Under the pieces are notes generated by a model that had not been told where the DNA came from, ran no database searches, and was given only the letters and a program-made list of their open reading frames with translations. The translations under genes were made by a program, and so were the position numbers. 64,000 bases of DNA, from NCBI GenBank assembly GCA_028285245.1, contig JANQPY010000016.1, positions 124,001 through 188,000 on the forward strand, in the 5' to 3' direction. The stretch comes from Gammaproteobacteria bacterium. GTDB taxonomy: Bacteria; Pseudomonadota; Gammaproteobacteria; Steroidobacterales; GCA-2729495. This document shows positions 9,315 through 38,219 of this stretch, piece after piece (position 1 is the stretch's first letter; the number at the start of each line of letters is the position of its first letter).

Positions 9315-10562
9315 TTAGCTGACGAGGTTACCGTCAGGGAACAGCGGGGTTACCCGGACGCGGTCTCCTGCGTCTACTTCAGCGACCTCGTCGTCAATGA
9401 CAATCCAGCAGTTCGCCTCGGTCAGCGGTTTGATGCGAAATGATTCCTGGCCGGGTAACAGAGCTGCTGTCATTTGACCTGACTGGCCTGTTTCCAGCCG
9501 CGCCTTGCCAAAGAACGTGAACTCCGCTCGCTTTCTCATTGGTTCTCGTGCCAGCGCATAGCACGCCTTTTCCGGTGCCAGTCCGGTGAGCTGACGCAGC
9601 AGCGGAACGCCAAAGAAACGCAGGCCCGCGGCAACCGCCACCGGATTGCCGGGCAGGGAGAGGATCGTCGGCCCCTGGGTGACCTTAGCCAGCAAGACTG
9701 GCTTGCCTGGCCGCACCGCAACTTTGTGAAAAATGATGTGCCCGCCGGCAGCTTCCACCGCAGCCGGCACATAGTCATATTCCCCGGCTGATACGCCCCC
9801 TGTCGTGATGATCACGTCGGCGTCCGCACCGAGTTCGCTGAGCTGCCGGGCGATATCCTCGATGCTGTCATTGGCGTAACCCTGACGAGTGAGCGAACCG
9901 CCCGCCAGCGCGCAGGCGCTGGCCAGGTACGGACCGTTGCTGTCGCGGATGAGACCGGATCCGCTTGGCGCGCCCGATGACGTCAGCTCAGCCCCGGTAA
10001 CCAGCACGGCCACCCTGGGTATTGGTCGAACATCGAGTTCATCAACGCCGCCCGCTGCCAGTGCCATGAGATGCTGAGGTTGAAGAACGGTTCCACCAGC
10101 GACAAGTTGTGCATCGCGCCTGAAATCCTCTCCGGTTCTGCGGATGTTTCGATTGGCAACAACAGGCGCGGTCAGCTCGATGGCGCTGACTGCGCCCTTG
10201 TCGTCAGTGAGGGTTTGCACGGCTTCAATTGGCACGATGGTGTCGGCGCCAGCAGGAACTGGCGCACCGGTCATGATTCTCACGGCGGTGCCGGCAGAAC
10301 AAGATTGATTTGTGGCGTCTCCCGCGGCGGACTCGCCGTGCACCGCCAGACGCACTGGCGCGGCGGGTGACCCCTTTTCCGTATCTCTGGCCCGCACGGC
10401 AAAGCCGTCCATAGCCGAGTTGTCGAAGTCCGGCACATTGAGTTCGCTGCACACCGCGCTGACAGTTGTGCAGCCCGCCGCGTCCTTCAGTCTTTTAGTC
10501 CCCGGGGGCAGCGGCTTGATGGCAGCGTTTATTGCTTCGAGCGCCTGCGCGTAGCGAATCAT
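9315..10562 (-). CDS. moeA: Molybdopterin molybdenumtransferase MoeA
   Basis: Inserts molybdate into adenylated molybdopterin in the last step of Mo-cofactor synthesis (cytoplasm). The 415-aa length is typical. Family signatures include NVPDFDNSAMDGFAVRA near residue 45, IMTGAPVPAGADTIVPIE, the MoCF-domain TTGGVSAGEYDYV, and SLPGNPVA. It is transcribed opposite to the transhydroxylase-like operon, with a 172-base gap to the VOC gene. Its presence 3.4 kb from a bis-MGD-type enzyme and a TorD-like chaperone fits a local molybdoenzyme supply function, though moeA is also a housekeeping gene. Confidence 0.95.
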   Translation of the reverse strand: MIRYAQALEAINAAIKPLPPGTKRLKDAAGCTTVSAVCSELNVPDFDNSAMDGFAVRARDTEKGSPAAPVRLAVHGESAAGDATNQSCSAGTAVRIMTGAPVPAGADTIVPIEAVQTLTDDKGAVSAIELTAPVVANRNIRRTGEDFRRDAQLVAGGTVLQPQHLMALAAGGVDELDVRPIPRVAVLVTGAELTSSGAPSGSGLIRDSNGPYLASACALAGGSLTRQGYANDSIEDIARQLSELGADADVIITTGGVSAGEYDYVPAAVEAAGGHIIFHKVAVRPGKPVLLAKVTQGPTILSLPGNPVAVAAGLRFFGVPLLRQLTGLAPEKACYALAREPMRKRAEFTFFGKARLETGQSGQMTAALLPGQESFRIKPLTEANCWIVIDDEVAEVDAGDRVRVTPLFPDGNLVS

Positions 10563-10734: not shown

Positions 10735-11730
10735 ATGAATGACACTGCAAAGTCCACCAGCGCGCCGGTCAGCGTCGTCGTAATAGGCGTTGAAAGTCTC
10801 GCTAAGTCTTTAGATTTTTACGCCGGCACGCTTGGCCTGGAAGTGACTGAATCCCGCGTTTGGCAGGGGAGGGACTTTGAGCAGTACTGGCAGCTTCCGT
10901 CTGGTGCCTCTGCGCAGTGCGCGTTTCTGGCTCATGGCGCCGACCCGGTGGGTCGCATTCAGCTCATGGAGTTTTCGGAGCCTGAGCGGAAACTAGTCCG
11001 GGAGCCCGAGATTCGCCGCGCGACAGGCCTGTTCAATCTGAATATCTACGCCAGTGATATGGCGCGCGACTACGAGCAGCTGAAGTCGCAGGGCTTTAAT
11101 TTCTGGAGTGAACCGGCGCATAACAATTTCGGCCCGGCAGTTGGCGAGACGCTGGAGGCAGCCTTTGATGGCCCGGATGGCGTCGTCATTAACCTGATCC
11201 AGCTGCTGAGCGACGATCCCAAGACCGTCATCGGCCATATCATCGAATTTATTGGTGAGTATGGCCGCACGCCAAAGGGCTACACGTCGGTCGTTACAAC
11301 GGCCCACGGTGTCAGGGATATGGAAAAGGCGGTTGAGTTTTACTACGGCCCGCTGAACATGACGCTGTTTATTGAGTCGGTGCTGGAGGGGCCGGAGACC
11401 AACCGAGCTTTGTGTTTGCCTGAGCATTGCCGCACGCAAAGCGTGATCGTCCAGGGCAGTCATGAGTACGGCAAGATCGCTTTGGCAACGCCTATGAACT
11501 ATGAGGTACCGGACCTGACCCCGGTGGCTGTGCCGCCAAACATTGGCTATCTGGCCCAATCATTTGCAGTGGATGACATCGATATGGCGGCGAAGGCTTG
11601 CGCGGCCCTCGGCGCGGAGGTCTTTGCCGGGCCGATGCAGCTCGCGCTACCGGGTCGCGGCGATTGCCGCTCCATTATTGTGCGCAATCCCGGTAGCGGC
11701 GCCCTTCAGGAGCTGTTTCAACCCTGCTAA
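10735..11730 (+). CDS. Two-domain VOC (glyoxalase/extradiol-dioxygenase fold) protein
   Basis: A 331-aa protein with two tandem VOC modules, roughly residues 10-155 and 180-328. Each begins with a beta strand and the S-L-D-FY or A-VEFY helix (VESLAKSLDFYAGTLGLEV; MEKAVEFYYGPLNM). The ATG at 10735 is chosen over an upstream in-frame start at 10588 because the extra 49 residues are Arg-rich and unlike the family. VOC proteins include extradiol dioxygenases, glyoxalases and epimerases. The first-strand His metal ligand is missing in domain 1 (VVVIGVES) and displaced in domain 2 (TTAHGV); a C-terminal Glu (LQELFQ) remains. Catalysis is therefore uncertain. The PQQ dehydrogenase follows 38 bases later on the same strand. 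Confidence 0.8.
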   Translation: MNDTAKSTSAPVSVVVIGVESLAKSLDFYAGTLGLEVTESRVWQGRDFEQYWQLPSGASAQCAFLAHGADPVGRIQLMEFSEPERKLVREPEIRRATGLFNLNIYASDMARDYEQLKSQGFNFWSEPAHNNFGPAVGETLEAAFDGPDGVVINLIQLLSDDPKTVIGHIIEFIGEYGRTPKGYTSVVTTAHGVRDMEKAVEFYYGPLNMTLFIESVLEGPETNRALCLPEHCRTQSVIVQGSHEYGKIALATPMNYEVPDLTPVAVPPNIGYLAQSFAVDDIDMAAKACAALGAEVFAGPMQLALPGRGDCRSIIVRNPGSGALQELFQPC

Positions 11731-11768: not shown

Positions 11769-13757
11769 GTGATCAGGTTTGTGAGCCACTGCCTTGGGCG
11801 CCTGTCGGTTCTTACGCTTGGACTGCTTGTCCTAGGGGTTAGCCTGGCTAACGACCCTGGCTGGCTGCACTACGGTGGCTCGCCCGGTGGCGCGCAGTAC
11901 TCATCGCTCGCGCAAATCAATCGCGAAAACGTGCACGCGCTCGAGCCTGCCTGGGCTTACCAGACGGGCGATCTTGAGCGGCATCCCCAACACAAACGCC
12001 TGGCCGCACTGAACGTTACACCAATCATCCTGCCACCCGACGCTGGCGCATCCCTGGTGTTCTGCTCAGCGATGAATCGCGTGATCGCTTTGGATCCGGT
12101 AACCGGGCAGGAGCGTTGGGTCTATGATCCAGAGATTATTCTGGGGCCGGTCGGCAATAAGTTTTTATGCCGCGGGGTCGCCTATTGGGAAGATCCCGAC
12201 ATCGCTGCTGGTGCTGTCTGCCAGCATCGGATATTCACGGCGACCAAAGACCTTCGGCTAATAGGTCTCGACGCCCGGACCGGTGAGCCGTGCACGGAGT
12301 TCGGTGAAAGCGGTCAGGTTGACGTGCGGCCAGAAATTTACCGCGGGACACCCGATCTGGCAGAGGGCGATGTCCAGTTTTCCGCACCACCCGTAGCGCT
12401 TGAGGATTTAGTGATCGTTGGTATGGCCGACAACACCAAGTTCTGGCGTGCTGACAGTCCGCCTGGCCTGGTGCGCGCCTATGACGCGCGGACCGGTGAG
12501 CCGCGGTGGCAGTTCGATCCTTTACCGCGAGGCGCTGACCAGGCCGCTGATGCCCGTTCACCAGACGCTTTCCAGACAGTGACCCGAGGCGCGAACGTTT
12601 GGTCCATGATGTCCGTGGATGTCGAGCGTGGTCTGGTGTTTTTACCGACAGCAACCGCCGCGCCCAACAACTACGGCGGTTTGCGGCCCGGAGACAACCG
12701 TTATGCCAATTCGGTGGTTGCGCTCGACGTTGAGGACGGCAGCCTGGTTTGGCACTACCAAATCGTGCATCACGACGTTTGGGATCTGGATCTGCCGGCG
12801 CAGCCAATTCTGGTTGATCTTCAGCGAGACGGTGAAGCTGTTCCGGTTGTCATACAGCTCACCAAGCAGGGGTTGATCTTCGTGCTGCATCGGGAAACGG
12901 GCGAGCCGGTATTTCCGGTAGAGGAGCGCCCCGTGCCGACCGATGGCGTGCCGGGAGAGGTGCTTTCTCCAACCCAGCCTTTTCCCGTCCGGCCGGCGCC
13001 GCTGGGCCGCTTTCGGTTCACGCCCGACGATGCCTGGGGGCTAACGTTCTTTGACCGCAATGCCTGTCGGCGAAAACTTGGGTCCTTCGGTCGCAGCGGC
13101 CTGTATGAGCCGCCGGGTTTTGCGGGCACGCTGGGTGTAGCTTCGGCGAGTAACTGGGGTGGTGGTGCCTACGACCCGAAGCGATCGCTGCTGATTGTGC
13201 CCGTGTCCCAGGCACCGACCTATACTCGGCTTAAGCGCACGAGTGACGTCACAGAAGAAGAGCTCAATCAGCCGCGCATGGGTCCCATCGGTCCACCCAC
13301 ACCAATGGCGGGCACGCCATACTCTTTTCAGTTCGGACCGGTCCTGTCCCCGTTGTTTGCCCCTTGCACGAAGCCGCCGTGGGGAGAGCTTGTTGCGGTC
13401 GATTTGTCGGGCGAAACGTCTACCCGTTGGCGACTAACGCTGGGCACGCTCGAAAAACTCATGCCCGTGCCTTTGCCTCTGCCGTTCGGTACGCCGCTCG
13501 CAGGCGGGGCAATTGTGACAGGCGGTGATCTAGTGTTCATCGGGGCGAGCGCCGATGAGAAGTTCCGCGCATTCGACGTGGAAACCGGGAGCAAGCTCTG
13601 GGAAGTGAGCACGCCAGCCTCCGCAATGGCGACCCCCATGACGTATTCGGCAGGCGGCAGGCAGTACATCGTCGTCGCCGCCGGCGGACACATTGTGGCC
13701 GGGTTCAGAAATATTTCCGACTATCTTCTGGCCTTCGCATTGCCTGATGCCCCCTGA
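11769..13757 (+). CDS. PQQ-dependent dehydrogenase (quinoprotein glucose/quinate dehydrogenase type)
   Basis: A 662-aa eight-bladed propeller quinoprotein that would oxidise a sugar or alcohol in the periplasm and pass electrons to the respiratory chain. The GTG start gives a signal peptide (FVSHCLGRLSVLTLGLLVLG ... ending near LAND). Family features include WLHYGGSPGGAQYSSLAQIN at the mature N-terminus, repeated DARTGEP / DVETGSKLWE blade motifs, IVHHDVWDLDLPAQPIL and the C-terminal GGRQYIVVAAGGH. It lacks the five N-terminal TM helices of E. coli Gcd and has no cytochrome c domain, so it is predicted to be soluble or peripherally bound. PQQ synthesis genes are not in the window. The substrate is unknown; neighbours suggest an aromatic or alicyclic polyol, which is inference. 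Confidence 0.9.
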   Translation: MIRFVSHCLGRLSVLTLGLLVLGVSLANDPGWLHYGGSPGGAQYSSLAQINRENVHALEPAWAYQTGDLERHPQHKRLAALNVTPIILPPDAGASLVFCSAMNRVIALDPVTGQERWVYDPEIILGPVGNKFLCRGVAYWEDPDIAAGAVCQHRIFTATKDLRLIGLDARTGEPCTEFGESGQVDVRPEIYRGTPDLAEGDVQFSAPPVALEDLVIVGMADNTKFWRADSPPGLVRAYDARTGEPRWQFDPLPRGADQAADARSPDAFQTVTRGANVWSMMSVDVERGLVFLPTATAAPNNYGGLRPGDNRYANSVVALDVEDGSLVWHYQIVHHDVWDLDLPAQPILVDLQRDGEAVPVVIQLTKQGLIFVLHRETGEPVFPVEERPVPTDGVPGEVLSPTQPFPVRPAPLGRFRFTPDDAWGLTFFDRNACRRKLGSFGRSGLYEPPGFAGTLGVASASNWGGGAYDPKRSLLIVPVSQAPTYTRLKRTSDVTEEELNQPRMGPIGPPTPMAGTPYSFQFGPVLSPLFAPCTKPPWGELVAVDLSGETSTRWRLTLGTLEKLMPVPLPLPFGTPLAGGAIVTGGDLVFIGASADEKFRAFDVETGSKLWEVSTPASAMATPMTYSAGGRQYIVVAAGGHIVAGFRNISDYLLAFALPDAP

Positions 13758-13916
13758 CAGCGCCTGGCGGCACCAGTCGGGGCTTGATATTTGCTAAATT
13801 CGCAGGCTTGGCCGCCACGTAAAATGAACCATTAAGTAGCGGCGGTCCCTGACGCGCACTAGCGCCCGGTCAAGAACGCCAGGCCAGGCCGCTCTCACCA
13901 AGCCCAGGAGTCAGCA

Positions 13917-16877
13917 ATGAAGCTAGCGATCATATTTTGGGGTATTCCGCAGGCAATGCGGCTGTGCGCCAGATTGTTTCCCAAATTTGCCGAGCGCCTC
14001 AAAGAGCGGGATGTCATTGCTCAGTTTCAGCTGCGCGACAAGCCCATGGGCCGCTGGATTCAGCTTCAGGACGGCAGGCTCACGACGGGCAGTGGCATTC
14101 ATCATCAGCCTGACTTCACCATTTTCTTCAAGAACGAAAAGATTGCCGCCAGCTTTTTGACCCCACCGTTCGATCATCTCGAACGCATTGACGCTGCAAA
14201 AAATTTCAAGCTCACCATGCAGGGTCCGGACGATCTCATCGTGTGGTTCATGCACCTCCTGGCCAGCATGGAGTCCTACACCTGGACGATTGGCACGGAT
14301 GTGGGGAACGGCATCACCCGCTACACGAATGGCACCAACGGTGGTCCAATTTTCGTGTACGTCAAGAACGGCAAGATTCTGCGCACGACGCCCATGGATC
14401 TGGATGCCAGCGATGCCGATTCCTACACGATCAGGGCGCGTGGCAAGGAATTCAGACCGCCTCGTAAGACCACCCTGGCGGCGCATGGCCAGTGCCAGAA
14501 GTCGATGGTGTATTCGAAGAACAGAATTCTAAAGCCCCTTAAGCGAGTGGACTTTGATCCCGACGGCGAACGCAACATACAAAACCGCGGCAAGTCTGAG
14601 TTTGTCGAGATCAGCTGGGAAGAAGCGCTCGACATTGTCTCCGGCGAGATCAAGCGCTGTAAGCGTGCGGGTCCCGGCGCGATTGCGGTCGCCAACGGTT
14701 CGCACCATCAGTGGGGCAATCTTGGGCACTATCTGTCCGCGTTTAACCGGTTCTGGAACCTGATCGGCGTCACCAAGCTGATGCACTCGCCCGATAGCTG
14801 GGAAGGCTGGTTCTGGGGCGCTCAGCATCACTGGGGCAACAGCATGCGTTTAGGCGCAGCAGAGCCCTATGGAACGGTTGAGGATTGTCTCAAAGAAGCG
14901 GAGCTCATGGTGTTCTGGTCCAGCGATCCCGACGCCACATACGGCTTCGAGGGCACCCATCGCCGCCAGTGGGCCAAGGAGCTTGGCATCAAGATGGTGC
15001 ATATCGACCCGTATCTGAACCACACGGCTGCACATCTTGGCGGCAAATGGATTTCGCCCAAGCCTGGGACAGACACGGCATTTGCACAGGCGCTGACTTA
15101 CGTGTGGATTACCGAGGACACGTACGACAAGCAGTTCGTCGAGCAGCGAACCACTGGTTTCGATGAATGGAAGGCCCATGTGCTGGGTGAAGATGACGGC
15201 GTTCCCAAGACACCGGAGTGGCAGGAACAGGAAACCGGTATCCCGGCGCGTGATTGCCGGGCGCTCGCGCGCGAATGGGCGAGCAGGAAAACTTACCTCG
15301 GCGCCGGCGGGTGGGGTTGCGGCCTGGGCGGCGCCTGCCGCGGACCCACCGGTGCGCAGTGGGCGCGGATGATGACCATCCTGGCCGCCATGCAGGGTAT
15401 CGGCAAGCCGGGGTCCAATCTCGGCAACCTGCAGTTCGGCGCACCCGTGGATATGAACTTCTACTTTCCGGGCTATGCCGAGGGCAGCATGTCCGGCGAT
15501 CTCGCGTACAGCGCCAATTCGACCAACAATTATCAGCGCATGCCCCACATCGTTACGATGAATTCGGTCAAGCAGGTGATCCCGCGCATGTGGCTGCCGG
15601 AGGCCATTATGGGTACGCCGAAGCTCGGCTACGTCACCGCGGTGGACTCCGTCGTCGGTCAGTTCTTTCCGATTGGTTATCCCTCTCCAGGGCATGTTCC
15701 TGTGGAGATGATCTACAAGTACGGCAGTTCATCGCTCGGCACGCAGGTGGATTCCAACCGGTGGATCAACATGTACCAGCATGAGAATCTCAAGTTTGTG
15801 GTCAATCAGTCGGTGTGGATGGAGGGCGAAACGCGGTTTGCGGATGTGATTCTTCCGGCGTGTACGGTTTTCGAGCGCTGGGATCTTGGCGAGTGGTACA
15901 ACGTCGGCCCGGGTTATGTGCACCATATGTACTCGATGAACAATCACCGCGTGATCTCACTCCAGCACAAGTGCATCGAGCCGCTGGGTGAGTCAAAGTC
16001 TGACTACGATATATTTCTGGCCATCGCCGAGCGTTTGGATCTTGGGGCCGTTTACTCTGAGGGCGGCAATTCAGAGCTCGAATGGTGCCGTCGTGCCTAC
16101 GAATCTTCGGACGCTGCCAAGGACATGTCATGGCGGAAGTTTCTCAAGAAGGGCTACTACGTTGTGCCACCTGAGCCCGAAGGCTCGCGCGCGCCGACAG
16201 GGCTGCGCTGGTTCTACGAAGGCCGCAAGAAGGACGTGCCCGAGCCATATCCGCTGCCGTCCGACTTCGTCGAAAAGTATGCCGAGGGTCTGCAGACTCC
16301 ATCTGGCAAATACGAGTTCGTGCCTACCACGCTAAAGCGCTTCGAGGATCCTGAGCGTCCGGCCGTCAACAAGTATCTGCGGACGTTTGAGAATCGGGAG
16401 AACGAACCCGAAATCGCCGCCAAGTATCCGCTGCAGTTGCTGACGCCACATTCGCGCTACCCATTTCACCTGATGGGCGACGACGAGGGATGTTTTCTGC
16501 GGGATATTCGCGAGCACCGCGTGAAGGTGGGTGACCATTACTACCTCACGGCCAGGCTTAGCCGCGAAGACGCGGATGAACGAAACATCCAGGACGATGA
16601 TCTTATCCGGTTGTGGAATGACCGGGGTTCTGTGGTTTGTGCCGCTCAGGTCACCGATCGACTGCGGCCCGGCGTGATCAGCGCACCAACCGCCTCGGCG
16701 GAGTATCGCCCGGCGGGCGAGCCGGGCAAGTCCACCGATCTTGGCGGCTGCGTCAATATTCTGAACCCGAGCAAGCCGATTACGACCAAGAGCCACGGTA
16801 TTCGCCCGAACACGACTCTTATTCAGGTGGAAAAATGGACCGGTGAAGACACCTGGCAGCCTGTGGAGGCGGCGTAA
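13917..16877 (+). CDS. Molybdopterin oxidoreductase, transhydroxylase (AthL-like) large subunit with N-terminal SCP2-like domain
   Basis: A 986-aa DMSO-reductase-family catalytic subunit. From about residue 130 it follows the large subunit of pyrogallol-phloroglucinol transhydroxylase (P. acidigallici AthL): TNGGPIFVYVKNGKILR, SPDSWEGW (S294 matching the Mo-ligand serine), FWSSDPDATYGFEG, FYFPGYAEG (Y520), VISLQHKCIEPLGES and NDRGSVVCAAQVT. Like AthL it has no Fe-S motif in this subunit and no Tat signal, so it is cytoplasmic. Residues 1-130 are extra and look like an SCP2 fold: FQLRDKPMGRWIQLQDGRL, PDFTIFF, then a helix-rich end. AGGAG lies 7 bases before the ATG. The stop overlaps the small-subunit start (TAATG). 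The AthL reaction moves a hydroxyl between aromatic rings without net redox change; whether this enzyme does so is inference. Confidence 0.92.
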   Translation: MKLAIIFWGIPQAMRLCARLFPKFAERLKERDVIAQFQLRDKPMGRWIQLQDGRLTTGSGIHHQPDFTIFFKNEKIAASFLTPPFDHLERIDAAKNFKLTMQGPDDLIVWFMHLLASMESYTWTIGTDVGNGITRYTNGTNGGPIFVYVKNGKILRTTPMDLDASDADSYTIRARGKEFRPPRKTTLAAHGQCQKSMVYSKNRILKPLKRVDFDPDGERNIQNRGKSEFVEISWEEALDIVSGEIKRCKRAGPGAIAVANGSHHQWGNLGHYLSAFNRFWNLIGVTKLMHSPDSWEGWFWGAQHHWGNSMRLGAAEPYGTVEDCLKEAELMVFWSSDPDATYGFEGTHRRQWAKELGIKMVHIDPYLNHTAAHLGGKWISPKPGTDTAFAQALTYVWITEDTYDKQFVEQRTTGFDEWKAHVLGEDDGVPKTPEWQEQETGIPARDCRALAREWASRKTYLGAGGWGCGLGGACRGPTGAQWARMMTILAAMQGIGKPGSNLGNLQFGAPVDMNFYFPGYAEGSMSGDLAYSANSTNNYQRMPHIVTMNSVKQVIPRMWLPEAIMGTPKLGYVTAVDSVVGQFFPIGYPSPGHVPVEMIYKYGSSSLGTQVDSNRWINMYQHENLKFVVNQSVWMEGETRFADVILPACTVFERWDLGEWYNVGPGYVHHMYSMNNHRVISLQHKCIEPLGESKSDYDIFLAIAERLDLGAVYSEGGNSELEWCRRAYESSDAAKDMSWRKFLKKGYYVVPPEPEGSRAPTGLRWFYEGRKKDVPEPYPLPSDFVEKYAEGLQTPSGKYEFVPTTLKRFEDPERPAVNKYLRTFENRENEPEIAAKYPLQLLTPHSRYPFHLMGDDEGCFLRDIREHRVKVGDHYYLTARLSREDADERNIQDDDLIRLWNDRGSVVCAAQVTDRLRPGVISAPTASAEYRPAGEPGKSTDLGGCVNILNPSKPITTKSHGIRPNTTLIQVEKWTGEDTWQPVEAA

Positions 16878-17713
16878 TGACTGACAAATGGAACATGATC
16901 GTCGATGTCGAGCGCTGCAATAACTGCCGGGCGTGCTTTCTGGCGGTAAAGGACGAGCATACGGGTAATGAGTTTCCTGGCTATGCTGCTGAACAGCCGG
17001 CGATGGGCCACAACTGGCTGGACATCGAGCGTAAGGAACGGGGTACGTATCCGATCGTTGACGCGCATTTCATGCCAGTCATGTGCAATCACTGCGATGA
17101 CGCCCCGTGCATTAAGGCCGCGAAGAACGGTGCCGTGCGCAAGCGCGACGATGGTATCGTCATCATCGACCCCATCAAGTCGAAAGGTCAAAAGGAAATC
17201 GTCGATGCCTGCCCCTATGGCGCCGTGTCATGGAATGAGGAGAAGCAGATTCCGCAGGCCTGGATTTTCGATGCTCACTTGCTGGACGAGGGCTGGGAAC
17301 AAACCCGGGCGGAGCAATGTTGCCCGACGGGCGTATTCCGCTCGCTTAAGGTAGATGACGGGGAGATGCAGCGCCTTCAAAAAGCTGAATCGCTGGAGGT
17401 TTTGCAGCCCGAGCTGGGAACTCGCCCACGCGTTTACTACAAGAACCTCCACCTGATGACCCACTGTTTCGTCGGCGGCAGCGTCGTTACAGTAAGGGAC
17501 GGCGTCGAGGAGTGTGCCGAGGGCGCTGCTGTCGTGCTCACGCAGAATGGCAATGAGATAGCACGCGCGACCACCGACACCTTCGGCGAATTCAAGCTGG
17601 ACAAGCTGCCCGCCAACAGCGGCGCCTATCAGATTGAAGTGAATGGCCAGGCATCAGCCAGCTTCGATCTCGCTGAGGAGAGCATCTACCTTGGCGTGCT
17701 GAAGCTGGCGTAG
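16877..17713 (+). CDS. Transhydroxylase-type iron-sulfur small subunit (AthS-like), with one cluster's ligands lost
   Basis: A 278-aa partner of the upstream molybdoenzyme. It follows AthS through its whole length: ferredoxin-like part, ERKERGTYPIVD, EDGIVLID-like DDGIVIIDPIK, ELGTRPRVYYKNL, and a C-terminal Cna-B/transthyretin-like beta domain (residues about 198-278, TTDTFGEFKLDKLP). AthS has 12 Cys ligands for three [4Fe-4S] clusters. Present here are C14/C17/C20, C70/C73/C78, C112 (CPYGAV) and C148/C149. The fourth Cys of motif I is V24, and the CxxC before AHLLD is W129/D132. Two clusters therefore look intact and one looks lost. GGAGG precedes the ATG. The tight junction argues for a stoichiometric complex with the large subunit. 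Confidence 0.92.
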   Translation: MTDKWNMIVDVERCNNCRACFLAVKDEHTGNEFPGYAAEQPAMGHNWLDIERKERGTYPIVDAHFMPVMCNHCDDAPCIKAAKNGAVRKRDDGIVIIDPIKSKGQKEIVDACPYGAVSWNEEKQIPQAWIFDAHLLDEGWEQTRAEQCCPTGVFRSLKVDDGEMQRLQKAESLEVLQPELGTRPRVYYKNLHLMTHCFVGGSVVTVRDGVEECAEGAAVVLTQNGNEIARATTDTFGEFKLDKLPANSGAYQIEVNGQASASFDLAEESIYLGVLKLA

Positions 17714-17789: not shown

Positions 17790-18641
17790 ATGATTTTTTT
17801 GACCGGCGCCACAGGCAAGATCGGCGGGGAGACCGCCCGTCAGCTCATTGAGAAGGGCGCCAGCCTGCGCGCTCTGGTGCGCGATGAGTCTAAGGCGGCT
17901 GACTTGAAGGCCGCCGGGGTCGAGCTGGTGGTCGGCGACATTGCCGATGCCGAGACGCTGCGCACGGGATTATCCGGCGCGCAACGCGCTTTCCTTCTTT
18001 TGCCGAATGGCGAGCATCAGGAGGCGAATGAGAAACAGTTTACTGACCTTTGTCGTGAGTTGGGCGTCAAGCATCTTGTGAAGATGTCTTCAATGGAAGC
18101 CGTCGCCCATGCTGAGACTCCCATTCCGCGGGCTCATTGGGCAGTTGAGGAGTACATTCGCGGATCAGGCCTGGACTGGACCATGGTCAAGCCGAACTTT
18201 TTCATGCAGAACCTGATGGCGAGCGCCGCCCTCATCAAGGAGAAACGCATGTTCTCGCTGCCCATGGGCGACGGCACGACGGGTATGGCCGACGCCCGCG
18301 ACATCGGCGCCGTTTGCGCGGAGGTGCTGACGGCGGATGGGCACGCAGGTCAAAGTTATGAGATCACGGGGCCTGAGGTCATCACATTCCATGAGGCTGC
18401 GCAGCGATTCAGTGAGGTTTTGGGTGAGCCGGTCAAGTATGTACCTATGCCCATGGACAAGTTTCGTGAGCGCATGACCGGCGTGTTGCAGCCATGGCAT
18501 CTGAACGCAGTTTGCGAACTGTTTCGAGAAATCGCTGAGATCGGTATCGACCACACTACTGACACGTTCAAGCGGCTGATCGGACGCGATCCGATCTCGC
18601 TGCGTCAGTTCGTCGGGGATCACCTGGCGTTGTTCAAGTAG
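17790..18641 (+). CDS. NmrA-like NAD(P)-binding oxidoreductase
   Basis: A 283-aa atypical SDR. The Rossmann motif is at the very start (FLTGATGKIGGETARQL, residues 4-20), followed by ALVRDESKAADLKAAGVELVVGDIAD, the NmrA/NAD(P)H-azoreductase pattern. The third segment, MVKPNFFMQNLM, also fits. The canonical YxxxK is not obvious; RAHWAVEEYIRGSGLDW occupies the place, as in the QOR2/NmrA group. GGAGAG lies 5 bases upstream of the ATG. It lies 76 bases after the small-subunit gene and before the TorD-like gene, so it probably belongs to the same operon. It could reduce a product or quinone of the pathway, or sense redox state; the sequence alone does not say. Confidence 0.82.
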   Translation: MIFLTGATGKIGGETARQLIEKGASLRALVRDESKAADLKAAGVELVVGDIADAETLRTGLSGAQRAFLLLPNGEHQEANEKQFTDLCRELGVKHLVKMSSMEAVAHAETPIPRAHWAVEEYIRGSGLDWTMVKPNFFMQNLMASAALIKEKRMFSLPMGDGTTGMADARDIGAVCAEVLTADGHAGQSYEITGPEVITFHEAAQRFSEVLGEPVKYVPMPMDKFRERMTGVLQPWHLNAVCELFREIAEIGIDHTTDTFKRLIGRDPISLRQFVGDHLALFK

Positions 18642-18680: not shown

Positions 18681-19343
18681 ATGAGCGTTGACGCGTCGCG
18701 GTCTGATGCGGTTCGCAAAGTGCAGGGCCGTGCTGTCGAGTCGACCGCCTCTGTGCGCTGCGCGTGCTATGCGGCCTGGTCGGAGCTTTGCGCATCGCCG
18801 CATGACCTGGATCCGCGGCCCGGGTTGCGTGAGCGTGTCGGCAGTTGGGGCTCTATCGGCTACGCAAGCTCGATGGATGCCTTAATTGGCGACTATGTTG
18901 ATGTCCCGTTGGAAGACCTGAAGCGCCAGTTCAGCGGTCTGTTTGAGATTGGCAGCGATGGGCCGGTTGTGCCGATTCGCGAGGATTTGCAGACCGGTCA
19001 GCGAGCCGGAACACGCGAAAGTCTCGTGCGGTTTTACGAGCACTTTGGTTATCAGCTTGCGCAAGGGTTTGCCTGGGCACCCGATCACCTGTCTGTAGAG
19101 CTGGAGTTCATGCATTTCCTTTGCTACGGGGAGGCGACCGCGGACAGTGATGCTTCCTCGCAGCAGCTTGCTCAAATCGACTTTACCGAGCGGCATTTGC
19201 TGCGCTGGGTTCCTGATCTGGCAAGGCAGGTAGAGAAAGAGTCTGCCGGCAGTCTGTATGCGCGAGTAATCGCTGAGCTTGCCCAGTTTGTTGCCGCAGA
19301 TCGCGAGTGGCAGGCGGGGACTATTGTTGCCACGACGGTGTAG
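18681..19343 (+). CDS. TorD/DmsD-family molybdoenzyme chaperone
   Basis: A 220-aa all-helical chaperone of the TorD family, which protects apo-molybdoenzymes and helps insert the bis-MGD cofactor in the cytoplasm. Recognition rests on the R-F-S-G-L-F-E-I-G-S-D-G-P motif followed by the P-I-R-E-D-L segment, the VRFYEHFGYQL helix, and the conserved PDHLSVELEFMHFLCYGEA near residue 140. Its position, 39 bases after the NmrA-like gene and just after the large and small subunits, makes the AthL-like protein the likely client. Because that client has no Tat signal, the job here would be cofactor insertion rather than export proofreading. Confidence 0.85.
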   Translation: MSVDASRSDAVRKVQGRAVESTASVRCACYAAWSELCASPHDLDPRPGLRERVGSWGSIGYASSMDALIGDYVDVPLEDLKRQFSGLFEIGSDGPVVPIREDLQTGQRAGTRESLVRFYEHFGYQLAQGFAWAPDHLSVELEFMHFLCYGEATADSDASSQQLAQIDFTERHLLRWVPDLARQVEKESAGSLYARVIAELAQFVAADREWQAGTIVATTV

Positions 19344-32109: not shown

Positions 32110-33393
32110 TCAGATAGTGTTTCCCGCGGGTCGGCGGCGCAGCGCAAGAATCAGTAGCAGCGATAGACTGAAAAAGCTCACCGCGCTGCTGCCCTTGTCA
32201 TCGCTGGTTTGCTGCGTGGACGTATTAGCCTGAACCACACCGCTGATACACGCCGCCGCTGCCGGTCGGGCAAGAAAGCGCTCCATCGTATCCAGGCTGC
32301 ATTGGGAGAACTGATCAGTGCCCGTGATTGTGTTCTCCATTAAGAAACCGGGTGGTGCGAACTCACAGGGGTTAGGGATTCTGCCGTCTGGGTCGGGACT
32401 GCCTTCGTTATCGTGAAAGGCCCCCAGGTTATGGCCAATTTCATGGGCTGTGGTTAGCGCGCTAATCCAGGGGTCGGCAACTTGCTGGCTGATGGCGACG
32501 CCGAACGCATCACTGCAGGCCGCCCCCAGGAATGCAATGCCGCGCGTGGTTCCGTCCAGGTCGCGACCTGTCAAGAGGTGGGTTGGGCCATACTGAATTC
32601 CGCGAGCGAGACGGAAGTTGCTAACTTCGTCGAGCAGCATTTCGGCATCGGATGCCTGAAACGGATCTCCCGCCGTATTGAAGATCGTCATCTCGCGTAT
32701 ATTGATATCAACGCCGAGCTGAGCGGCAAAAATGCCATCCACCATATTGATTCGCGACATCAGCTCCGCTTCTGAGCCAGCGCCGTAGGTTGAGAAGAAC
32801 TCGAAGTCAGCAATGACGTCTACATTCAGGTCGAGCGGGCTATCTGCATTCAGGCGAATGGGCTGATTGAGTTCTAGCGCAAGTCCGGCAAGCGCTTGCT
32901 CGCCGGTGACCGATTCACCGGCGGTTAGCAGAGCGCAGCCCGAGGCATCGGCGGGCAATACCAGATCAGACATACGGAAAATGATATTCGTGGTCGTGCC
33001 ACCGTCGGGATGAAGCATGCGGGGGCGCGCACTTTCTCGCGGCTCAATGCCGAACTGCTCTTCACCGTCAAATACTATCCCTCGGAGCTCGTCGCCGCGG
33101 CGAGTTATTCTGGCCCATGATCCAGCGCGGCCGTTTACTGTGCCCCGATAGAGTCCGATACCCGGAACAGTCCGCCGCCGCTCAAGCCGGGTATTTGCCA
33201 CGAGCGCAATATCAAACCGCTGACCGAACGCAAAGAACGACAGTGTGCTCGTCTCACCCGGGGTGACTAGGTCCACGGCTTCCTGGTAGAGAATCTGGCT
33301 GGCCGGGTTGTCTGCGCTGACGGCCACCGACAGATTACCGGCCAGGGCGAGAAATACCGCCGTCCGTAGCCACATGGAGAGTCCTTTCTTCAT
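32110..33393 (-). CDS. Secreted zinc metalloprotease (M12/reprolysin-like) with C-terminal TM-RRR tail
   Basis: A 427-aa exported protease. Signal peptide MKKGLSMWLRTAVFLALAGN ... SVAVSA. The catalytic zinc motif is HEIGHNLGAFHD (HExxHxxGxxHD), with a Met-turn candidate at GFLMEN. The N-terminal half is a propeptide-like beta domain. The C-terminus has a low-complexity linker (TSTQQTSDDKGSS), one hydrophobic helix (FFSLSLLLILAL) and RRR, the layout of a sorting tag such as GlyGly-CTERM (rhombosortase) although the GG is not clear. It would then be anchored in the inner membrane and later released. Diverges from the bio operon. Confidence 0.87.
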   Translation of the reverse strand: MKKGLSMWLRTAVFLALAGNLSVAVSADNPASQILYQEAVDLVTPGETSTLSFFAFGQRFDIALVANTRLERRRTVPGIGLYRGTVNGRAGSWARITRRGDELRGIVFDGEEQFGIEPRESARPRMLHPDGGTTTNIIFRMSDLVLPADASGCALLTAGESVTGEQALAGLALELNQPIRLNADSPLDLNVDVIADFEFFSTYGAGSEAELMSRINMVDGIFAAQLGVDINIREMTIFNTAGDPFQASDAEMLLDEVSNFRLARGIQYGPTHLLTGRDLDGTTRGIAFLGAACSDAFGVAISQQVADPWISALTTAHEIGHNLGAFHDNEGSPDPDGRIPNPCEFAPPGFLMENTITGTDQFSQCSLDTMERFLARPAAAACISGVVQANTSTQQTSDDKGSSAVSFFSLSLLLILALRRRPAGNTI

Positions 33394-36797: not shown

Positions 36798-38219
36798 ATG
36801 TACACCAACGTTTGGTACGTTGCCGCCTTTGGCCAGGATCTAACCGATGCGCCCGTTTTGGTGCGCATGCTCGGCGCGGACTTCGTGCTGTTTCGGGATG
36901 CGGACGGCAAGGTGCAATGTGTCAGCAATGTCTGCCCACATCGCGGCGCTAGCCTGGCAGATGGCACATTACTGAAGGACGGCAGTCTGGCCTGCCCGTT
37001 TCACGGCTGGAGGTTTGATGGCGCCGGGGCCTGTACGCTGATTCCTTCCCGGCGCGACCATGAGGTGCAGGCGGTTGCGCCGGGCACGCGCGTTGATGCG
37101 TATGCCGCCCAGGAGCGCTACGGTCTCGTCTGGGTATGCGTTGGCGATGATCCTGAAGCAGCGTCGCCTATCCCCGAGATCCCAGAGTGGGATGGCGACG
37201 AGTTTCGGTTTACGCAGCACGAGGAGGTGTGGGAGGCAAACTACCACACGGCCAAGTTCACCAACCTCGACTATGTGCACCTGCCCGTAGTGCACGGAAT
37301 TCCCTTCCGTAATCAGCAGAATCCAACTCAGGCGCCAGCGCACCAGGTGACTGTTACAGAATATGGCTTCACTTCGGTGATGCAGACCGTGCCGAAAGCG
37401 AGCGAAGGCGTCTGGTCTACGCTGCGCGATGAAGACCGAAAAGTGGAATCGGTAATGAAGTTTTTTGTCGCCGGCATGACGCTGCGCGGCCAGGTAGAGA
37501 TCGGCGGAGTGGGGTCCGGCGTCTTCAACATGTTCTACGAGTTCTCCACGCCTATCGACGCGGAGACCACCATGATGCGGTATTACTTTCTCCGCAACTA
37601 CAAGCGCGAGGAAGCGTTTGATACTGAGCACACGCGGCGAAACCTGCAGAACATTCATCAGGACAAGGCCATCGCCGAGGCGCAACGCCCAAAGGCTGCT
37701 CCTGTTGGCCCGAACCCCCGTGGCATTTACACGCACGACGAAGACAAAATCATGCTGGCGTACTGGAGCCTGATGGAACGGATGCGCGAGCGCGGATGGC
37801 AGATCGACCGAGATGCCATGATCACGGCTGAGCATCGCGGTGAGCTGAGGGTCATCCCGTCGCCAGCGCGGCGTCATGCTCCTGACGGCTGGGTTTACGC
37901 GGAAATGCCGCGCTACACTGGCCGCCCGGCAAGTGCGGCCGCCATAAGCGAGCTAAGCTATGTTGATGTCGATGCGCTGACGCCGACTCGCCCTGCCGAC
38001 TACGGTAGTGTCGAACCGGTCAGGCCTGAGGATCCCAAGAGCAACGCGACGCTTGAATGGGAGTCAGCAGCGCTTAAGGTGGTCGAGCAGGCGCCGACTT
38101 TCGTGCAGCCGATGATTATCGAGAATGCCGAAAAGGCTGCGCGGCAGCGGGGCACGAACATGGTAACCGCGGCACTGCTGCAGGAACTGCAGGCGCAGCA
38201 GAGCGCAGGCCGCGGGTAG
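36798..38219 (+). CDS. Rieske-type aromatic-ring-hydroxylating oxygenase, large subunit
   Basis: A 473-aa Rieske non-haem iron oxygenase of the VanA/Pob-like type. The Rieske [2Fe-2S] ligands are C46/H48 (CPHRGA) and C66/H69 (CPFHGW). The mononuclear iron ligands appear in TNLDYVHLPVVHG (H161, H166, with D158 bridging electron flow). N-terminal MYTNVWYVAAFGQDL is typical of monooxygenases that demethylate or hydroxylate aromatic and steroid-like substrates. The C-terminal 90 residues are longer than in VanA. No reductase or ferredoxin gene is adjacent, so electrons must come from an unlinked partner. Substrate unknown. Confidence 0.9.
   Translation: MYTNVWYVAAFGQDLTDAPVLVRMLGADFVLFRDADGKVQCVSNVCPHRGASLADGTLLKDGSLACPFHGWRFDGAGACTLIPSRRDHEVQAVAPGTRVDAYAAQERYGLVWVCVGDDPEAASPIPEIPEWDGDEFRFTQHEEVWEANYHTAKFTNLDYVHLPVVHGIPFRNQQNPTQAPAHQVTVTEYGFTSVMQTVPKASEGVWSTLRDEDRKVESVMKFFVAGMTLRGQVEIGGVGSGVFNMFYEFSTPIDAETTMMRYYFLRNYKREEAFDTEHTRRNLQNIHQDKAIAEAQRPKAAPVGPNPRGIYTHDEDKIMLAYWSLMERMRERGWQIDRDAMITAEHRGELRVIPSPARRHAPDGWVYAEMPRYTGRPASAAAISELSYVDVDALTPTRPADYGSVEPVRPEDPKSNATLEWESAALKVVEQAPTFVQPMIIENAEKAARQRGTNMVTAALLQELQAQQSAGRG

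Follow-up and report, generated by a model that had tools for sequence, protein, structure and literature searches.

The gene analysed here, in a 64,000-nucleotide stretch of a gammaproteobacterial contig (the window), probably encodes the large subunit of a molybdenum-dependent phenol hydroxylase or hydroxyltransferase of the AthLS kind with an early-fused, divergent SCP2 domain, a reading to which we assign a probability of about 0.6. Sequence comparisons and the tree derived from them suggest that this domain was fused once, and early, to the N-terminus of an AthL-type protein, and that it defines a sister subfamily, which we term SCP2-AthL. The computational analysis itself shows the domain architecture and its single origin, the SCP2 fold, the conservation of the molybdenum-ligand serine and of the AthL-type active-site positions, the Fe-S partner and the maturation chaperone.

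The open reading frame (13917-16877, forward strand) encodes 986 amino acids, in agreement with the frame and length of the initial annotation. The N-terminal extension is real coding sequence, given that an AGGAG motif lies 6-8 bases 5' of the ATG at 13917, that an in-frame stop (13858-13860) lies upstream of this ATG, and that dN/dS is low. For residues 1-130 the latter ratio is 0.04-0.11 against those close relatives for which it could be computed, and the domain is therefore under purifying selection, while evolving faster than the core (approximately 75% versus 90% amino-acid identity in close relatives).

The prediction that this extension has an SCP2 fold is solid, whereas its sequence-level membership in the Pfam family is not. 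Taken singly, the window protein matches the Pfam SCP2 model over residues 23-76 with an E-value of 0.22 and a score of 12.3 bits, which does not reach the curated cut-off of PF02036 (21.3 bits). The assignment, weak by single-sequence HMM, becomes convincing once homologues are included. A scan of our genome collection recovered homologues at 79 loci, and among the 71 N-domains that were aligned 26 are matched by Pfam SCP2, at a best E-value that is still weak (0.0015), and 9 by Alkyl_sulf_C, an SCP2-like domain. The AlphaFold2 model built with the 71-domain alignment has a mean pLDDT of 85.7 over residues 1-145, and a Foldseek search with this model returns SCP2-fold entries at every rank from 1 to 37 (E 1.3e-5 to 7e-3), with no other fold for the first 130 residues within those ranks. 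These entries include the alkylsulfatases Pisa1 and SdsA1, the C-terminal domain of which we take to be SCP2-like, UbiJ-SCP2, and rabbit, human, insect and archaeal SCP2 proteins. When the N-domain profile is compared with the PDB, the best matches are to mosquito SCP2-like 2 (E 0.11-0.31, weak if taken alone), the aligned part being the canonical A-x-K-x-x-K-[IL]-x-x-x-G segment. Compared locally, the N-domain profile runs colinear with that of UbiJ-type SCP2 domains from related genomes across the domain (P about 0.004), and comparison of the N-domain profile with single UbiJ or UbiT sequences gives no match. It is on the Pfam matches of the homologues, the PDB profile matches, the AlphaFold2 and Foldseek results and the UbiJ-type profile comparison that the fold assignment rests. 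The sequence segments which first led to the suggestion of an SCP2 fold for residues 1 to about 130 fall, in the model, on strands 33-39, 45-51, 67-71 and 99-102 and on the C-terminal helix (105-121), and that suggestion is borne out by both the predicted structure and the homologue matches. Six residues, Q36, R46, G53, K95, G103 and F111, are invariant in the 71-domain alignment. One subclade (L072, L073, L074, L152 and L153) shows an insertion of about 15-30 residues within the domain, placed between the strand block and the 'AAKNF' segment.

The SCP2 fold recurs in two kinds of known systems that invite comparison. The SdsA1/Pisa1 alkylsulfatases, which yield the best Foldseek E-values (1e-5), are likewise enzymes with a fused SCP2-like domain, but their catalytic domain is unrelated, the SCP2-like domain is C-terminal and their substrates are amphiphilic alkyl sulfates. 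UbiJ and UbiT share the SCP2 fold (UbiJ-SCP2, 6h6o, TM 0.53/0.62) and are tied to aromatic-ring hydroxylation; unlike the N-domain, with which they are at most about 15% identical, they are separate proteins of a biosynthetic pathway that are not fused to a hydroxylase.

The remainder of the protein forms the catalytic core, in which the AhtL-like first domain scores 88.8 bits against a Pfam cut-off of 27 and the molybdopterin domain 96.9 bits against 24. In a phmmer search of the PDB, residues 133-977 align with residues 4-870 of AthL (4v4c_A) with an E-value of 3.3e-267, and nothing N-terminal of residue 133 is matched in this alignment. The initial annotation had placed the start of the AthL match at about residue 130 and had held that AthL is devoid of the extra domain; both points stand, the latter for the Pelobacter acidigallici protein (4v4c_A), the one characterised enzyme that was compared for the presence of such an extension. 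To our knowledge, no enzyme other than AthL that uses molybdenum to exchange hydroxyls between phenols has been characterised structurally. A full-length model of the window protein superimposes on 4v4c_A with a TM-score of 0.87, at a mean pLDDT of 74, the local confidence being low near the active site. We take His144, Asp174, Ser175, Tyr404 and Tyr560 to be the active-site residues of AthL (4v4c numbering); the equivalents of the first four (His263, Asp293, Ser294 and Tyr520) are present in 53/53 sequences of our tree, and that of the last (Tyr667) in 48/53. The molybdenum-ligand serine is accordingly kept, Ser294 corresponding to Ser175. Two further positions, Arg153 and Phe468, presumably line the AthL pocket, and of these the first is tyrosine or tryptophan throughout the extended clade and the second mostly threonine. 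These replacements hint at a different substrate, and even the reaction type may differ.

On the whole, AthLS (PgtLS) of P. acidigallici and the window system are alike in the core (51% identity over 838 aligned positions), the AhtL-like first domain, the position of the serine ligand and the AthS-like partner. They are set apart by the altered pocket positions, by the placement of the window protein in a sister clade, and by the roughly 128 residues that precede the core of the window large subunit, whereas AthL begins directly with domain 1. Molybdenum is coordinated by serine in both PgtL and RhL (PMC10100899), and the RhLS resorcinol hydroxylase of Azoarcus anaerobius resembles the window enzyme in belonging to this serine-coordinating MopB branch and in phenol hydroxylation (PMC10100899).

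In a maximum-likelihood tree of 53 sequences, all 33 extended large subunits form one clade (support 100/100). Under the midpoint root, on which both this sister relation and the single gain depend, the extended clade is sister to a group uniting AthL with three unextended actinobacterial paralogues (support 99/96); the other 16 of the 20 unextended proteins fall outside both clades. The length of the N-terminal region before domain 1 is bimodal, being about 130-150 residues (a few open frames are longer) or about 3-90, and AthL-like proteins with the short version show no N-domain match. The extended clade spans at least 7 phyla, with members in Pseudomonadota, Acidobacteriota, Actinomycetota, Bacillota (Sporomusa), Chloroflexota, Zixibacteria and MAGs labelled Myxococcota, and is also encoded on plasmids of Burkholderia, Paraburkholderia, Ensifer and Salipiger. 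Within the family to which the window belongs, the AthL domain was detected in 37/40 genomes, the three exceptions being incomplete, while it is rare in the phylum sample, phylum- and class-wide surveys with PF21423 giving very few matches. A literature search, covering open-licence papers, found no paper on a fusion between SCP2 and a molybdoenzyme. An unusual expansion is seen in the actinobacterial MAG RBG_16_64_13 (G597; L067, L155-L161), where a 2.6 Mb assembly contains 11 matches to AthL domain 1; one of the 11 copies is extended and adjoins a convergent unextended paralogue.

The neighbourhood of the gene (table) includes an AthS-like small subunit, the start of which overlaps the large-subunit stop, and the two subunits adjoin each other in 51 loci. 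In 10 loci a TorD-type chaperone is encoded nearby. The VOC gene is the commonest upstream neighbour in the subclade of the window (17 loci, usually 0-264 bp upstream). The window VOC protein gives no alignment with the plasmid HpaD-like VOC proteins and only weak glyoxalase matches, and its identification as an extradiol dioxygenase is unsupported. The PQQ-dehydrogenase is devoid of the N-terminal membrane part of the glucose/quinate group model. Elsewhere in the window are a Rieske oxygenase (36798-38219, forward), in which a VanA-type C-terminal domain precedes a PCP_red domain, a type otherwise associated with protochlorophyllide reductase, and a reprolysin-like (M12B family) metalloprotease (32110-33393, reverse) with a signal-like N-terminus.

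Table. Features of the SCP2-AthL gene and its neighbourhood in the window
Feature	Position	Strand	Basis or remark
MoeA-like protein, molybdenum cofactor insertion	9315..10562	-	NCBIfam; near large subunit in 12 loci
VOC (glyoxalase-fold) protein, 331 aa from inner ATG	10735..11730	+	PF00903 at residues 15-153
PQQ-dehydrogenase, glucose/quinate group	11769-13757	+	Between VOC gene and molybdoenzyme
Start region: in-frame stop and AGGAG ribosome-binding motif	13858..13916	+	Sequence
SCP2-fold N-terminal domain, residues 1 to about 128	13917..14300	+	AlphaFold2, Foldseek, Pfam in homologues, dN/dS
AthL-type catalytic core, Mo-bisMGD	14301..16877	+	Pfam, identity to 4v4c_A, full-length model
Pfam domains of the core			AhtL-like_1st, residues 143-197; Molybdopterin, 203-706; Molydop_binding, 878-959
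AthS-like 4Fe-4S small subunit with C-terminal beta (CarboxypepD_reg-like) domain	16877..17713	+	Pfam, Fer4_11
NmrA-like NAD(P)-binding protein	17790..18641	+	PF05368; recurrent, 13 loci
TorD/DMSOR type II maturation chaperone	18681..19343	+	PF02613; TIGR03482 4e-32, below curated cut-off

The relatives place the extended large subunit in differing metabolic settings. In Clostridium scatologenes, the phloroglucinol pathway that has been characterised comprises PGR, an SDR; DPGC, of a cyclase family; TfD, of the 3-hydroxyacyl-CoA-dehydrogenase type; and TAL, a keto-acid cleavage enzyme (PMC10470551). Genes for a cyclase, a cupin, an SDR, a 3HCDH and a BKACE lie directly upstream of the extended AthL in two delta/myxobacterial MAGs (identified by HMM in L069 and by similarity in L061), and Sporomusa malonica DSM 5090 (L216) shows the five genes within about 12 kb. 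Four of these, the cyclase, SDR, 3HCDH and BKACE, are the gene types found in the C. scatologenes pathway. Two Pseudorhodoplanes MAGs have the cyclase, cupin and 3HCDH beside the extended AthL, with the SDR in one of the two and no BKACE nearby. The plasmid relatives are instead accompanied, in varying combinations, by an HpaD-like extradiol dioxygenase, an FAH hydrolase, an acyl-CoA synthetase and OmpW/FadL-type porins. Neither the genome nor the genus of the window contains a BKACE; the phloroglucinol route, as characterised, is therefore incomplete there, and the pathway is of neither the phloroglucinol nor the plasmid type as known. In G992 (L214/L218; same order as Sporomusa silvacetica), about 25-30 kb contain both an extended AthL and an AthL-like gene lacking the extension, together with a BKACE, a 3HCDH and a cyclase, a gene set that suggests sequential or different transhydroxylations in one pathway.

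With respect to mechanism, the MoeA-like and TorD-like neighbours would help load the molybdenum centre, which in turn would add a hydroxyl to a phenolic ring, or shift one on it, independently of O2. This would take place in the cytoplasm, no twin-arginine signal having been seen. The SCP2 domain may act as a capture or docking module with a putative apolar pocket beside the catalytic core, where it would hold an aromatic substrate, a co-substrate or a membrane component. Its range would include the small polyphenols of the phloroglucinol clusters, and some subclades probably use it for phenols that are more hydrophobic. Such a general role in capturing or docking an aromatic or membrane component is the one we favour, if tentatively and at somewhat less than even odds.

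The main rival is a chiefly structural or assembly role, in which an SCP2 fold that has ceased to bind ligands would form a subunit interface, mediate dimerisation or cap the funnel to the active site. The retention of the domain in 33/33 sampled members of the clade despite their differing metabolic contexts, its faster evolution relative to the core and its invariant polar residues (Q36, R46 and K95) are all consistent with this possibility. Against it, the canonical 'A-x-K-x-x-K-L-x-x-x-G' segment and an apolar C-terminal helix are retained, and AthL folds and works without any such domain. We regard the structural role as somewhat less likely than capture or docking. A bolder form of the capture reading, according to which this widespread subfamily of single origin would use a built-in lipid-carrier domain to capture an aromatic substrate or membrane quinone, and would thereby provide a means, conserved throughout one gammaproteobacterial family, of hydroxylating hydrophobic phenols independently of O2, appears rather doubtful.

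The initial annotation had proposed a hydrophobic or carrier-presented substrate, and a dedicated lipid-like carrier would accordingly present an alkylphenol, a resorcinolic lipid or a steroid-like phenol to the molybdenum, much as UbiJ does with ubiquinone intermediates. The structural proximity of the fold to UbiJ-SCP2 and the alkylsulfatase C-terminal domains is compatible with this proposal, as is the ability of UbiJ to bind hydrophobic intermediates (PMC6747719). The porins, acyl-CoA synthetase and ring-cleavage genes (HpaD-like dioxygenase, FAH hydrolase) of the plasmid relatives also lend it support, although that subclade is the only one in which gene context hints at apolar substrates. 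The same architecture is found in or beside phloroglucinol sets (Sporomusa malonica and MAGs), where substrates are small and polar, and no conserved lipid-metabolism partner accompanies the gene in the subclade of the window. Since the domain is kept in enzymes within phloroglucinol sets, it need not mean a fatty substrate and is not simply evidence of a lipid-like one. The proposal of a hydrophobic substrate is supported in part, and we regard a dedicated carrier as unlikely.

Quinone or membrane coupling is more improbable still. Here the domain would dock the enzyme to a membrane quinone, and the enzyme would be a net hydroxylase comparable to resorcinol hydroxylase, from which electrons exit via the Fe-S subunit, rather than a redox-neutral transhydroxylase. 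SCP2 domains do bind quinone precursors (PMC6747719), a 4Fe-4S subunit is encoded alongside, and RhL couples to anaerobic respiration (PMC10100899). However, AthL too has an Fe-S subunit and shows no respiratory coupling.

The least probable alternative, a one-protein analogue of UbiUV-UbiT in which the core hydroxylates the ubiquinone ring without O2, with the SCP2 domain as carrier of the prenylated intermediate, draws on the near-universality of the gene in the window's family and the rank of UbiJ-SCP2 among the best structural matches, but is strongly disfavoured because the genome encodes, elsewhere, two hydroxylases of the UbiH/I type as well as COQ7 and a separate SCP2 protein. Moreover, the Ubi-type hydroxylase family is matched in 40/40 genomes of the family (38 over the cut-off), no ubi genes were noticed adjoining the gene, and the gene is present in Sporomusa and Dehalococcoidales, neither of which is known to make ubiquinone. 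On the other side, UbiT, an SCP2 protein, works with the O2-independent hydroxylases UbiUV (PMC6747719). The Ubi sets vary within the window's family (f1; e.g. G467): some near-complete genomes have one strong Ubi-type hydroxylase and no COQ7, and others have two or three such hydroxylases together with COQ7.

A sister clade of AthL with a fixed SCP2 domain, represented in at least 7 phyla and, within one gammaproteobacterial family, almost universal, points to a second functional class of these enzymes, which appears to be undescribed in the open-licence literature searched. Cultured carriers of the extended AthL exist, such as Sporomusa malonica DSM 5090, and SCP2-AthL offers a direct, testable route to the role of SCP2 domains fused to redox enzymes.
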